A stretch of DNA of 64,000 nt from Candidatus Tectomicrobia bacterium (lineage in GTDB: Bacteria; UBA8248): assembly GCA_016192135.1 (NCBI GenBank), contig JACPUR010000001.1:186001-250000 (forward strand), given 5' to 3'. Below are positions 44,561-50,280 of the stretch, piece by piece (the first letter of the stretch is position 1; each line of letters begins with the position of its first letter). A program made the position numbers and the translations under genes. Under the pieces are notes generated by a model. The model did not search any database and was not told the origin of the DNA. It worked only from the letters and a program-made list of their open reading frames with translations.

Positions 44561-45199
44561 ATGGCTGAGCGCCTCGATCTCGATTCCCTCTACCTCATCA
44601 CGGACCGGAGCGTCCCCCTCGCGGGGGACCTCCTGGGCGCGCTCGGCGCGGCGCTCCGGGGCGGGGTGCGCCTCGTGCAGTTCCGGGAGAAGGACCTCCC
44701 GCCGCGCGCCCGCTGGGAGCTCGGCGAGAAGGTGATGCGGCTGGCGGAGGGCTGCGGCGCCTCCGTCGTCGTGAACGGCGACCCGGCCCTCGCCCTGGCC
44801 CTCGGGGCGGTGGGGGTGCACCTGGGGAAGGACACCCTCCCCGTCCGCGCGGTGCGCGAGCGGGTGGGCTGGCGCGGCCTCCTCGGCTACTCCGCCCACA
44901 GCGGCGCTGAGGCCGCCCGGGCCTTCGCCGAGGGGGCGGATTTCGTCACCCTGAGCCCGGTCTTCCCGACCCGGAGCAAGGCGGCCCAGGGGCCCGCGCT
45001 GGGGCTGGAGGGCTTCCGCGCCCAGGCGGAGGGCCTCCCGGGGCCGGTCTACGCCCTGGGCGGGGTGGGGCCCGGGAACGCCGCGGGCTGCCTCCGGGCC
45101 GGGGCGCACGGGGTGGCCCTCATCGGCGCCATCCTGGCCGCCCCCGACCCGGCCGCGGCGGCGGCGGCGCTGCGGGAGGCGCTGGCGCAGCGGGGGTGA
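44561..45199 (+). CDS. thiE: thiamin-phosphate synthase
   Basis: The 212-residue enzyme couples the thiazole and pyrimidine halves of thiamin. Motifs are [40 protein letters not shown] and the phosphate site [15 protein letters not shown] 44561 lacks a strong ribosome site; an upstream start at 44528 would extend it by 11 residues from the repeat side. It is 248 bases from thiG, with a hairpin element in between, so it may have lost tight coupling to the riboswitch. Confidence 0.94.
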
Positions 45200-45312
45200 C
45201 TCCCCCCTCCAAGCCCCGCGCGCTCTTGAGAAATCTTCGTGATTCCCCAACAATGGGGCATACATTCCGGCTCCTCCGGCACGAGGTGCCCCTGAAGGAG
45301 GGAGAAATCCGC

Positions 45313-47271
45313 ATGGCCCAGCCGACGCAGAACATCAGCACCCTTCTCCAGGAGAACCGCGTCTATAAGCCCCCCAAGGAGTTCTCCAGCCAGGCCCACA
45401 TCAAGTCCATGGCCGCCTACAGAAGGCTCTACGAGGAGTCGATCAAGAGCCCGGCCAAGTTCTGGGGGCGCCACGCCGAGCAGTTCCATTGGTACAAGAA
45501 GTGGAAGAAGGTGCTGGAGTGGAAGGAGCCCCACGCCCAGTGGTTCGCCGGCGGGACGACGAACATCTCCTACAACTGCCTGGACCGCCACCTCGCCACC
45601 TGGCGCAAGAACAAGGCCGCCCTCGTCTGGGAGGGCGAGCCGGGCGACTCGCGCGTCCTCACCTACCAGGACCTCCACCGCGAGGTCTCGAAGTTCGCCA
45701 ACGCGATGAAGAGCCTGGGCATCGGCAAGGGCGACCGGGTCATCATCTACCTGCCGCAGACGCCCGAGGCGGCGATCGCCATGCTGGCCTGCGCGCGCAT
45801 CGGCGCCCCCCACAGCGTGGTGTTCGCGGGCTTCAGCGCCAACTCCCTGCGCGACCGCATCCAGGACACCGAGGCGAAGGCGGTCATCACCGCGGACGGG
45901 GGCTGGCGGCGGGGCAACGTCGTCCCCTTGAAGCTGAACGCGGACGAGGCCATCGAGGGGTGCCCCTCGGTCAAGACCGTCGTCGTCTTGAAGCGCACCA
46001 ACACCCAGGTGCGCTTCCAGGAAGGGCGGGACCACTGGTGGCAGGACATCATGGCGGACGCCTCTCCCGACTGCCCCGCCGAGGAGCTCGACGCCGAGCA
46101 TCCCCTCTACATCCTCTACACGAGCGGAACGACCGGGAAGCCCAAGGGGATCGTCCACACCACGGGCGGCTACATGGTGGGCACCTGGCTCACCACCAGG
46201 TGCGTCTTCGACGTGAAGGACGAGGACACCTTCTGGTGCACCGCCGACATCGGCTGGGTGACGGGGCACAGCTACATCATCTACGGCCCCCTCCTGAACG
46301 GCGCCACATCGGTCATGTACGAGGGCGCCCCGAACCACCCCGGGCCGGGCCGCTTCTGGGACATCGTCCAGAAGTACCGGGTCAACATCTTCTACACCGC
46401 CCCCACCGCCATCCGCGCCTTCATGAAGTGGGGGGAGGAGCACCCCAAGCAGCGCGACCTCTCCTCCCTGCGCCTCCTCGGCACGGTGGGCGAGCCCATC
46501 AACCCCGAGGCCTGGATGTGGTACCGCCGCGTCATCGGCGGCGAGCGGTGCCCCATCGTGGACACCTGGTGGCAGACCGAGACGGGCACCATCCTGATCA
46601 CGCCCCTGCCCGGCGCCATCCCCACCAAGCCGGGGACGGCCACGCTGCCCTTCTTCGGGGTGGTGCCGGACGTAGTCACCAAGGAAGGGAAGTCGGTGGG
46701 CCCCGAGGCGGGCGGGTTCCTCGTCATCAGGCGCCCCTGGCCCGCCATGCTCCGGACCCTGTGGCGTGACGACGAGCGCTACCGGAAGCAGTACTGGGGC
46801 GAGATCAAGGGTTGCTACTTCACCGGCGATGGCGCCCGCCGCGACAAGGACGGCTACTTCTGGATCATGGGCCGGGTGGACGACGTCATCAACGTGGCCG
46901 GCCACCGGCTGGGCACCATGGAGATCGAGAGCGCCCTGGTGGCGAACCCTCGCGTGGCCGAGGCCGCGGTGGTGGGCATTCCCCACGAGCTGAAGGGCCA
47001 GGGCATCGCCGCCTTCGTGACGCTCAAGGGCGCGAACGCCAAGAACGTCGCCCTCGAGCAGGAGCTCAAGGACTGGGTGGTGAAGGAGATCGGCGCCATC
47101 GCCCGGCCCGACGTGCTGCGCTTCACCGACGCCCTGCCCAAGACCCGCAGCGGCAAGATCATGCGCCGCCTCCTGCGCGACATCGCCTCGGGCTCGGGCC
47201 AGGTGGGCGACACCACCACCCTCGAGGACATCTCCGTCCTGCAGTCCCTCCAGCAGTACCAGGACGAGTAG
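45313..47271 (+). CDS. acs: acetyl-CoA synthetase (AMP-forming)
   Basis: The 652-residue ligase activates acetate to acetyl-CoA through acetyl-AMP. Signatures are [35 protein letters not shown] and the regulatory Lys in TRSGKIMRR. Length is standard. ATG 45313 has AGGAGGGAGAA upstream; a longer frame beginning at 45196 overlaps thiE. A likely terminator follows. The enzyme should be cytosolic and probably regulated by lysine acetylation. Confidence 0.96.
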
Positions 47272-47421: not shown

Positions 47422-48156
47422 ATGCCGGGAGTCCCGGCGGCGCCGGGAAAGCGAACTGCCCTGGAGGACGGGCTCATCATCCGGTTCATCGGCGAGAAAG
47501 AGGACTTGAACGGGTCCTTCCCCCGCCTCGCCACCTGGGGGGAGGAGCGGCTGGCCGGGAACGTCGCCTACTGCCCGGAGGGCGGCTTCTTCGTGAACCT
47601 GGCGGGCGACTACAACTACATCGAGGCCGCCTACTACGTCTCCCAGGACATCGAGGCCGAGGGCCGCCCCGTCCACCCGACCTGCCAGGAGATGCTCGAC
47701 GCATACGTCCCCCCCCTCTTCCTGGAGAAGGCCCGGCTGGCCGGGCTCCCCGTCCCCAACTACTACGTCACCAACGATTTCTTCGAACCTCCCGTCATCG
47801 TGGACACCATCAACCCCTTCATGTACCGCCAGATGGTGGTGCTGAAGGAGGGGATGCAGCGGCGGGTGGCCAAGTCCCTCACCCGGAACTTCACCTACGC
47901 CATCTGCTGCCAGGAGCTGCCCGAGAGGGCGAAGGTGGCCTACTTCCGCTGCGTGATGGGCGAGTGCGGCGCCGGCCGCTTCCGCGAGGCGGCCCGCCGG
48001 TTCTGGGAGGCCTTCCGGCTGCCCCTCGCCGAGGTCCGGGTCATCCTCGCGCCGGGGGGCGAGATCCTCCTGAGCGGGGTGGACCCGCTCCCCTGGAAGA
48101 AGCTCACCCCCCGGGAGCGGGCCCGGCTCAACCGGCGGGTGCAATGGCCCGGATAG
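47422..48156 (+). CDS. RLAN (RimK-like ATP-grasp N-terminal) domain protein
   Basis: The 244-residue protein matches the RLAN domain. It begins IIRFIGEKEDLNGSF, then GGFFVNLAGDYNYIEAAYYV and PNYYVTNDFFEPP, and ends EVRVILAPGGEILLSGVDPL. In many proteobacteria RLAN is fused to a RimK ATP-grasp; here the partner is the next gene, which starts within the last 13 bases of this one. It is likely a substrate-recognition subunit of an amino-acid ligase. ATG 47422 is preceded by GGTAGG. The final product of this three-gene cluster is unknown. Confidence 0.85.
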   Translation: MPGVPAAPGKRTALEDGLIIRFIGEKEDLNGSFPRLATWGEERLAGNVAYCPEGGFFVNLAGDYNYIEAAYYVSQDIEAEGRPVHPTCQEMLDAYVPPLFLEKARLAGLPVPNYYVTNDFFEPPVIVDTINPFMYRQMVVLKEGMQRRVAKSLTRNFTYAICCQELPERAKVAYFRCVMGECGAGRFREAARRFWEAFRLPLAEVRVILAPGGEILLSGVDPLPWKKLTPRERARLNRRVQWPG

Positions 48157-49028
48157 GCGTCTTCATCGAGCGCTACACGGTGCAGAAATCCGAGGAGATG
48201 GGGGCCCTCCTCCGCCTGGGGCACGCCGCCGAGCGCCTGGGCCACCGGCTGGACGTCCTCTTCCGGTCGGACATGTACAAGATCCCGGAATACGACGCCC
48301 TCTTCATCCGCGCCCTGACAGACCCGCTGAACGCCTCCTTCGTCGCCGCCCGCCTCGCCGAGATGCACGGCCTGAGGGTGATCGACGACCCCGGGTCCAT
48401 CCTCGTCTGCTGCGACAAGGTGAACATGTACCGCCGCGTCCAGGCGGCGGGCGTCGCCATGCCGGACACCGTCTTCCTGGACGCGCCCGACGTGAACCTC
48501 GAGTCCGCCGCCGAGGTGCTCGCCCGGCTCGGCTCCCCCGCCGTCCTCAAGGCGCCCAACTCGAGCTTCTCCCGCTTCGTGGACAAGGTGGAGACCCCCG
48601 GGCAGTTCGTCCGCGTGGGCAAGCGCTTCCTCCGGCGGGCCGACCGCCTCGTGGCCCAGCGCTTCGTCGCCTCCGAGTACGACTGGCGGGTGGGGGTGCT
48701 GGCCGGGGAGCCCCTCTACGTCTGCCGCTACATGATCCCCAAGCGGCGCTGGAAGGTGCTCACCTACATGCCCTCGGGCCGGGCGGTCTTCGGCGAGGTG
48801 CGGGGGCTTCCGGTCGCCCAGGCGAACCCCCTCCTCGTGGACACCGCCCTGCGGGCCGCCGCCGCCATCGGCAAGGGCCTCTACGGCGTGGACCTCAAGC
48901 AGGTGGGGGACGAATACTTCGTCATCGAGGTGAACGACAACCCCACCATCGCGGCCGGCGAGGAGGACCAGAAGGCGCCCGGCCTCTACGAGCGCATCGT
49001 CCGCTACCTGGCCCGGGAGTGGGGCTAG
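48144..49028 (+). CDS. RimK-type ATP-grasp amidoligase
   Basis: The 294-residue ATP-grasp enzyme begins MARIGVFIERYTVQKSEEMG. It has ATP- and metal-binding stretches CCDKVNMYRRVQAAG, ADRLVAQRFVASEYDWRVGV and GVDLKQVGDEYFVIEVNDNP, the last with the acidic Mg-binding Glu and Asn. Such enzymes join an amino acid to a carboxylate through an acyl phosphate. It overlaps the RLAN gene by 13 bases and ends one base before the GNAT-C39 gene, so all three are translationally linked. Confidence 0.93.
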   Translation: MARIGVFIERYTVQKSEEMGALLRLGHAAERLGHRLDVLFRSDMYKIPEYDALFIRALTDPLNASFVAARLAEMHGLRVIDDPGSILVCCDKVNMYRRVQAAGVAMPDTVFLDAPDVNLESAAEVLARLGSPAVLKAPNSSFSRFVDKVETPGQFVRVGKRFLRRADRLVAQRFVASEYDWRVGVLAGEPLYVCRYMIPKRRWKVLTYMPSGRAVFGEVRGLPVAQANPLLVDTALRAAAAIGKGLYGVDLKQVGDEYFVIEVNDNPTIAAGEEDQKAPGLYERIVRYLAREWG

Positions 49029-49029
49029 G

Positions 49030-50280
49030 ATGGCCCCGAAATTCTCGGTGCGGCCCGCGGGCCCCGGGGACCTGGACGCCCTCGAGCGCCTGGAGAGGGC
49101 CGGCTTCCGCCCGGAGGACGCCTTCAGCCGGGCCCAGCTCCGCCGCCTCCTGGCCGGCAACGCCGCCGCCTTCCTCGCCGAGTCCACCCAAGGGGCCAAG
49201 CGCCCCGTGGGCTCGGCCGTCGTCCTCTGGCGGCGGGGCTCCCCCTCGGCCCGCCTCTATACCATCGCCGCCGACCCCGCCTTCCAGGGCAAGGGGGCGG
49301 GGAGCCTCCTCCTCGAAGCCTGCGAGCGCGCCGCCGCGGAGAAGGGCTGCGCCCAGATGCGGCTCGAGGTGCGCCAGAGCAACCGCCGGGCCATCGCCTT
49401 CTACGAGCGGCGCGGCTACCGCGCCGTCGAGACCCTGCCCGGCTACTACCCCGGCGGCGAGGCCGGCCTGCGCATGGCCAAGGACCTGGGCCCGTCCTCC
49501 TCCGCCGAAGCGGCCGCCCCCGCGCGCCGCGGCGCCGCGGCGCGCGGAGGCCCGAAGGCGGGTGCGAGTTCCGGTAAGCCGGGCGCCCCGGCCGGAGCCG
49601 GAGGGGACGGCCCCCGGCTCGACCTGCCCTACTACGCCCAGACCCTCGGCTTCACCTGCGGCCCCGCCTGCCTGATGATGGCCATGCGGCACTTCGACCC
49701 CAAGCTCCGCCTCGACCGCACCCTGGAGCTCGTCCTCTGGAAGGAGGCCACCACCGTCTTCATGACGGCCGGCCTGGGCGGCTGCGAGCCCTTCGGCCTC
49801 GCCGTGGCCGCCGGGCGCCGGGGTTACCGGGCCGAGGTGCTCGTCCCGGGCCGGGGCGTTCCCTTCCTCGGCTCGGTCCGCACCGAGGACAAGAAGGAGG
49901 TGGTGCGCCTCGTCCACCGGCAGATGAAGGCCGAGGCGGAATCCCTGGGGACGGCCGTCCGCTACCGCGGCTTTGGCTCCGCCGACATCGCCCGGGCGCT
50001 GCGCGGGGGCGCCGTGCCCATCGTCCTCGTCAGCGCCCACCGGCTCCACGGCTTCAGGGTGCCGCACTGGGTGGTGGTCACCGGCTTCGACGGGCGGAAC
50101 ATCTACCTGCACGACCCCTACGAACGCCACTACCGGCCCCACCCCCGGCGGGCCCGCCACCTCCGGGTGAGCGCCGGGGAGTTCGAGCGGATGACGCGCT
50201 GGGGCAAGGACTCCCTCCGCAGCGCCGTCCTCATCCGCCCCGCCCCCCGCGCGCGTAAAAATAAGCCTGAATATCCCTGA
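49030..50280 (+). CDS. GNAT acetyltransferase fused to C39-like cysteine peptidase
   Basis: The 416-residue fusion has a GNAT domain at 1-150 with acetyl-CoA motif GKGAGSLLLEA (87-97) and AIAFYERRGY. A disordered Ala/Pro/Gly-rich linker covers 153-195. A papain-like C39 domain covers 198-410 with catalytic Cys210 (FTCGPACLM), His346 (PHWVVVTGF) and Asp362 (HDP). The fused pair plus RimK/RLAN suggests the cluster makes and trims, or acylates, a peptide-like compound. The last codons lie in a 10-base repeat tract, which gives the KNKPEYP tail. No signal peptide is present. Confidence 0.92.
   Translation: MAPKFSVRPAGPGDLDALERLERAGFRPEDAFSRAQLRRLLAGNAAAFLAESTQGAKRPVGSAVVLWRRGSPSARLYTIAADPAFQGKGAGSLLLEACERAAAEKGCAQMRLEVRQSNRRAIAFYERRGYRAVETLPGYYPGGEAGLRMAKDLGPSSSAEAAAPARRGAAARGGPKAGASSGKPGAPAGAGGDGPRLDLPYYAQTLGFTCGPACLMMAMRHFDPKLRLDRTLELVLWKEATTVFMTAGLGGCEPFGLAVAAGRRGYRAEVLVPGRGVPFLGSVRTEDKKEVVRLVHRQMKAEAESLGTAVRYRGFGSADIARALRGGAVPIVLVSAHRLHGFRVPHWVVVTGFDGRNIYLHDPYERHYRPHPRRARHLRVSAGEFERMTRWGKDSLRSAVLIRPAPRARKNKPEYP

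Follow-up and report, generated by a model that had tools for sequence, protein, structure and literature searches.

What is made by a locus in which a stand-alone RLAN gene, an ATP-grasp ligase gene and a gene for an acetyltransferase fused to a papain-like peptidase follow one another on the same strand? Neighbourhoods combining RLAN (PF14401) with ATP-grasp ligases were reportedly predicted in 2009 by Iyer, Abhiman, Burroughs and Aravind, and RLAN clusters are said to have been catalogued since then without a product. The first-pass annotation of the DNA analysed here, a 64,000-nucleotide stretch of a Candidatus Tectomicrobia genome (the window), took the product to be not established, and the literature that we searched indeed gives none and yielded no experimental work on RLAN. 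The features of the locus are as follows.

47422..48156, + strand: stand-alone RLAN protein (P0001), 244 aa, matching PF14401
48144..48156, + strand: RLAN/ligase overlap of 13 nt, with the ligase ATG lying across the RLAN CAA-TGG codons (caATGGcccggatag)
48144..49028, + strand: ATP-grasp carboxylate-amine ligase, RimK/LysX-like (P0002), matching TIGR00768 at 2.4e-15
49030-50280, + strand: P0003, RimI-like GNAT fused to a DUF3335 papain-like domain, matching PF00583 and PF11814
49030..49509, + strand: GNAT half of P0003, approximately residues 1-160, RimI-like, with the acetyl-CoA motif QGKGAG
49624..50235, + strand: DUF3335 papain-like (C39-like) half of P0003, residues 199-402, with Cys-His-Asp intact (TCGP, PHW, HDP)

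The operon and its three proteins

The three genes form one operon. Open frames on the plus strand run through all three sets of coordinates, RLAN and the ATP-grasp are encoded by separate overlapping genes rather than by a fusion, as had been proposed, and the GNAT gene starts 1 nt past the ATP-grasp stop. The earlier description of a single operon of overlapping or abutting genes is borne out by the 13-nt overlap, the 1-nt gap and 40 like loci, and because gene order, strand and families repeat in these loci across four phyla, the arrangement is not a chance one. Matches to PF14401, TIGR00768, PF00583 and PF11814 likewise agree with the first assignment of RLAN, ATP-grasp and GNAT plus papain-like domains, and P0003 supplies the linked GNAT–peptidase fusion by which RLAN neighbourhoods are recognized.

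P0001 matches PF14401 with an E-value of 1.3e-10 and 41.6 bits, exceeding the curated cut-off of 25. Its start is uncertain: if translation began at the TTG at 47506, which follows GAAAGAGG, the protein would have 216 rather than 244 aa, and in the first loci compared the homologues are mostly ~205-230 aa long. An ORF that reads as an acetyl-CoA synthetase (45196-47271, same strand) ends ~150 bp upstream of RLAN; it is probably there by coincidence, since the other loci do not show it as a regular neighbour.

The nearest curated ligases of P0002 are RimK, LysX, MptN and CofF. It matches the RimK family TIGR00768 (E 2.4e-15, 56.6 bits) below the curated cut-off of 143.4, LysX (E 2.9e-14) below the curated cut-off and PF08443 at 19.2 bits, under a cut-off of 21. 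The label of RimK ligase given to it earlier is apt in that P0002 is an ATP-grasp nearest RimK/LysX, and goes too far in that the curated RimK cut-offs are not reached. RimK (S6-L-glutamate ligase) and LysX/ArgX are its closest curated families, yet it scores below their cut-offs, is paired with RLAN and shares its genome with a separate RimK. The catalytic residues K92, K136, R182, D250, E262 and N264 are intact, and 72-73 of 73 relatives keep the ATP- and Mg-binding residues unchanged.

The GNAT half of P0003 matches PF00583 at 5e-17, with rimI as its best curated relative (9.5e-19), and the C-terminal half matches DUF3335 (PF11814) at 1.1e-72. A review places the DUF3335 family beside Guanylate_cyc_2, describes GNAT fusions as frequent and, citing the 2009 amidoligase paper, raises a possible peptide ligase or acetylation role (PMC10318531).

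One reading suggested by these relatives is protein tagging. RLAN and the ATP-grasp would then extend a host protein with amino acids, at its C terminus or on a side chain, in the manner of RimK or tubulin ligases; the GNAT would acetylate the N terminus of a protein, and removal of the tag or trimming of the target would fall to the papain-like half. We consider it unlikely. RimK and RimI, the closest curated relatives, do act on protein C and N termini, respectively, a papain-like hydrolase suits deconjugation, and small-molecule pathway genes are not linked at the loci related to the window; but the RimK and RimI jobs are already filled by other genes of the window genome (C19:213528-214094, 159 bits, and a gene on C27, 115.6 bits, above the cut-off, respectively), no target gene is linked, and scattered occurrence (1/18 genomes of the window phylum, 34/133 of the Zixibacteria phylum) fits a housekeeping target poorly. 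The first-pass annotation had set its reading against separate action of the genes in known pathways such as S6 glutamylation; with separate RimK and RimI genes present, the operon is not needed for S6 or S18, and modification of either by it is unlikely.

The split family and the fused RLAN ligases

No related loci were retrieved with P0003 alone as the query; an alignment of split RLANs succeeded, finding relatives in one Gemmatimonadetes MAG, two Zixibacteria MAGs and two Lambdaproteobacteria. The collection of split loci, with neighbouring genes called by a simple script, comprises 40 from the window phylum, Zixibacteria, SAR324/Lambdaproteobacteria and Gemmatimonadota. Among the samples of genomes searched, whose phylum names are taken solely from named records, split RLAN is found in 34 of 133 Zixibacteria, 4 of 52 Lambdaproteobacteria and, at full length, 1 of 346 Gemmatimonadetes (three more match in short pieces); RLAN occurs in 1 of 18 genomes of the window's own phylum. 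In a second genome of the window's genus a DUF3335 gene lies at the end of a contig, and the genes after it are those found downstream in the window.

All 40 split loci have RLAN, ATP-grasp and GNAT on one strand, and every one of the 40 RLANs matches PF14401. Conserved RLAN motifs are NLAG-x-Y-x-Y...YY-x-SQ, TRN-x-x-YA-x-CCQE and PLA-x-VR. The overlap between ligase start and RLAN stop is exactly 13 nt in 33 of the 40 loci and 5-10 nt in the remaining seven, a tightness that suggests translational coupling. At most loci the ligase ATG shares its TG with a Trp codon of RLAN, and this explains why the final Trp of RLAN is near-invariant. By eye, the overlaps hold no common slippery heptamer, and a programmed frameshift yielding a fused RLAN-ligase was rejected. 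In one relative (L025, 937-2913) GNAT, RLAN and ATP-grasp are joined in a single 659-aa protein without a papain domain.

No fourth gene family is common to more than five of the 40 split loci. Four Zixibacteria loci (L048, 1592-6582; L102; L105; L110) share an upstream block of five genes, encoding a TetR, a SpeD-like AdoMet decarboxylase, a FemAB/GNAT-fold protein, an L-amino-acid-ligase-like ATP-grasp and a PLP decarboxylase, which looks like a polyamine-peptide pathway.

The papain-like half is intact in 26 split loci, undetectable in 12, where tblastn of the flanks around each locus also found none, and degenerate in two Lambdaproteobacteria loci (L031, 9720-10736; L032, 6233-7192), in which what follows the GNAT is a papain-like remnant that has lost Cys, His and Asp, a pseudo-peptidase. 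With fused-type loci counted in, the triad is intact in 29/29 relatives that have a papain-like domain. Lack of an intact half requires at least 10 state changes on the ligase tree; loss is the simpler reading, on a tree that cannot separate gain from loss. Missing in 12 loci and stripped of catalytic residues in two, the papain-like half is accessory rather than core. The first-pass annotation had counted a peptidase in the set, which holds for the GNAT fusion of the window and not for the core, since it is absent or dead in 14/40 loci; the C-terminal half of P0003 is DUF3335 as elsewhere in PF11814, yet of a kind lost or dead in more than one third of its relatives here.

RLAN also occurs in a fused form. 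It scored above threshold in 25 of 386 sampled genomes, in nearly all of them within a long frame that includes an ATP-grasp (mostly 485-545 aa); only three, the window and two Lambdaproteobacteria, had a short stand-alone RLAN. At the fused loci examined there are C39-like, GCS2 and N-formylglutamate amidohydrolase-like (FGase) genes, GCS2 (1.8e-31) and FGase (8.9e-18) adjoining the fused RLAN-ATP-grasp, with GNAT-C39 instead in Azospirillum and Tistrella. One genome, G367, carries both kinds of cluster. Split and fused RLAN are homologous (hhalign probability 97.8, E 1e-12), the split form being longer by extra residues in its middle. In a maximum-likelihood tree of 64 ligase domains, made by a quick search with SH-aLRT support only, the split (40) and fused (24) ligases are fully apart with a branch support of 100. 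Judged from these sequences, the split form is a distinct ancient family, newly recognized here, and not a broken fusion. At P0002 residues 89-90, before the ATP-site lysine, lies a CC-DK motif whose first Cys is found in every one of the 72 ligases aligned from the two families; at the second position the split family has C and the fused family mostly T or S.

The neighbourhoods of 2009 reportedly share with the window RLAN, a RimK-like ATP-grasp and a GNAT fused to a DUF3335 papain-like peptidase. The present set differs in that RLAN is separate with a longer middle, the ligase forms its own clade, the papain half is dispensable, and GCS2, FGase and ferredoxin genes are missing.

The fused clusters bring in a thiol or gamma-glutamyl metabolite, a reading in which RLAN ligases may extend a gamma-Glu-type compound and the GNAT would replace the GCS2/FGase steps in the split family. 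Its attraction is that the fused sister cluster has GCS2, of the gamma-glutamyl ligase family, together with the N-formylglutamate amidohydrolase-like gene, that GCS2-like neighbours occur in six loci and that a Cys-bearing short ORF lies upstream in seven loci (see below). We think it improbable all the same, as GCS2 and FGase genes recur at none of the 40 split loci examined and the long branch between the two ATP-grasp families means that their substrates may differ.

RLAN and the ATP-grasp fold

An AlphaFold model of P0001 from six sequences (mean pLDDT 68, pTM 0.65, with poor quality at residues 1-45 and over most of 122-163) was used as the query of a fold search, in which 50/50 listed PDB matches were ATP-grasps, with a best E-value of 5e-4 and TM-scores of ~0.24-0.42. 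The graspetide ligases MdnB (5e-4) and PsnB (7.7e-4) came first. As a control, a poorer model (pLDDT 56) of the true ATP-grasp P0002 matched ATP-grasps at 3e-9. Sequence-profile comparison of RLAN with ATP-grasps by hhalign and HMMER gave nothing significant; the best HMMER matches of RLAN, to tautomerases, were weak (E 0.24) and were set aside.

A register between the two proteins can nonetheless be proposed. Sliding the N-terminal RLAN secondary structure along P0002 ranked P0001 = P0002 + 5 first of 223 registers. The same register was among the top diagonals of an earlier profile scan, and it comes first of 218 if the N-terminal block is moved in its entirety as a single piece. The unconstrained sequence signal is borderline (P 0.035-0.23 depending on window length), and in profile Smith-Waterman comparisons against permuted columns 10, 2, 13 and 6 of 200 shuffles, by set and shift, scored as high. 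The C-terminal register ranks third of 233 by secondary structure, with no support from the sequence test. In the secondary-structure register, the ligase Mg ligands D250, E262 and N264 correspond to RLAN R206, S218 and V220, and the ATP-lysine K136 to about RLAN D128, such that RLAN, if it is an ATP-grasp and the register holds, would lack Mg ligands. From this modelling, we consider it probable that RLAN is a decayed, catalytically dead ATP-grasp. The PF14401 assignment made earlier stands; in place of the recognition domain described there, we read RLAN as an ATP-grasp subunit that has probably decayed.

The fold matches also recall the graspetides. In microviridin biosynthesis two ATP-grasp ligases act with the GNAT MvdB, and in other graspetides processing is the work of C39 domains (PMC13039773). 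Microviridin and graspetide ligases (MdnB/MdnC, PsnB) have in common with the operon the ATP-grasp fold of the RLAN model, paired ATP-grasps, a GNAT and, across the wider group, a C39-type protease; they differ in that no precursor was found here and one member of the ATP-grasp pair would, in the secondary-structure register given above, lack catalytic residues. A graspetide-like ribosomal peptide would need a precursor encoded elsewhere or too short to be noticed, from which the C39 domain would remove the leader, leaving a fresh N terminus for the GNAT tethered to it to cap.

As the first-pass annotation had noted, no precursor gene is evident in the window. A conserved short peptide near homologous clusters, which it had suggested seeking, did not emerge: small ORFs across the 40 split loci are conserved only within local clades. 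One such set is a Cys-containing ORF of ~23-26 codons (e.g. MNKYNEKCICSRLSGSGRSPEGKRGK), ~300-450 bp upstream of RLAN and directly behind a promoter-like TTGACTTG/TATTAT sequence, common to seven related Zixibacteria loci (L106, L107, L114, L117, L120, L123 and, as a 2-mismatch match upstream of the L122 RLAN, G471:C146:25443-25481). It shows many synonymous third-position changes among these loci, occurs once per genome in the six genomes with exact matches, has no match in Rfam, and might encode either a leader peptide containing Cys or a small peptide that serves as substrate. This ORF, the microviridin-like parts list (two ATP-grasp proteins, GNAT, C39 protease) and the ranking of MdnB and PsnB are what commend the ribosomal peptide. 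The precursor is missing, however, in the window and in 33/40 loci, the ORF is limited to one clade and has no acidic core of the graspetide type, DUF3335 differs from the C39 domain of ABC transporters, and the papain half is absent in 12/40 loci, making a graspetide-like product doubtful in our view.

Proposed function of the operon

We favour an N-acetylated small peptide over protein tagging, a ribosomal peptide or a thiol/gamma-glutamyl compound, on the precedent of Ngg. This enzyme both acetylates a glutamine and links it by a peptide bond to another (PMC8070244); NAGGN synthesis by Ngg, a combination of GNAT and ATP-grasp (TIGR03103), is credited to Sagot et al. 2010 in the passage of PMC8070244 that cites that work. 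In the NAGGN system, as may be the case here on the likeness of the genes, GNAT and ATP-grasp together make an N-acetyl dipeptide and a peptidase is linked. GNAT and ATP-grasp are adjacent genes in the window and a single chain only in L025. The window differs from the NAGGN system in lacking an AsnO gene, in its peptidase family, in the added RLAN subunit and in a far lower TIGR03103 score.

In the proposed mechanism, RLAN, as a decayed ATP-grasp, would pair with the active ATP-grasp subunit and help to bind the acceptor. The active subunit would phosphorylate a carboxylate to an acyl phosphate and form an amide with an amino acid through the latter's amino group, in the way of RimK/LysX/CofF-type ligases. 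The GNAT would place an acetyl group on the alpha-amino group, acetyl as the acyl group being assumed. Trimming or recycling of the product would be left to the papain-like half, which is optional and which such a role would allow to be lost. RLAN and ligase are likely to constitute one enzyme, as the sister family has them fused, and this fusion together with the GNAT-RLAN-ATP-grasp chain of L025 points to physical partnership of all three activities.

The N-acetyl peptide reading is supported by the 40/40 co-occurrence, the 13-nt overlap in 33/40 loci, the invariant ligase residues and the dispensable papain half, and by the result that the 40 loci have neither a further gene nor a precursor in common. 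Counting against it, no amide-forming or amino-acid-supplying gene lies beside the operon to mark a substrate, a RimI-like GNAT with a papain-like domain suits a peptide or protein substrate equally well, and P0002 and P0003 score 14.9 and 21.3 bits against the Ngg model TIGR03103, whose cut-off is 569. By sequence, then, the operon belongs to neither the Ngg nor the RimK family, to which it is likened in its working. That it yields an N-acetylated small peptide, acting like NAGGN synthase without being a member of it, is a tentative proposal. We give about equal weight for and against the combined picture of an active and a pseudo ATP-grasp forming a hitherto unrecognized hetero-oligomeric ligase with an acetyltransferase as its obligate partner, the whole belonging to an ancient family apart from the fused RLAN ligases and having an acetylated peptide as product.

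With the split family, the system comes down to a minimal core of three genes, open to expression and assay, in which the papain-like protease is optional and RLAN is suggested to be a pseudo-ATP-grasp partner. A cluster without an assigned product thereby becomes a set of testable questions: whether the proteins form a complex, which carboxylate is the substrate and what accepts the acetyl group.
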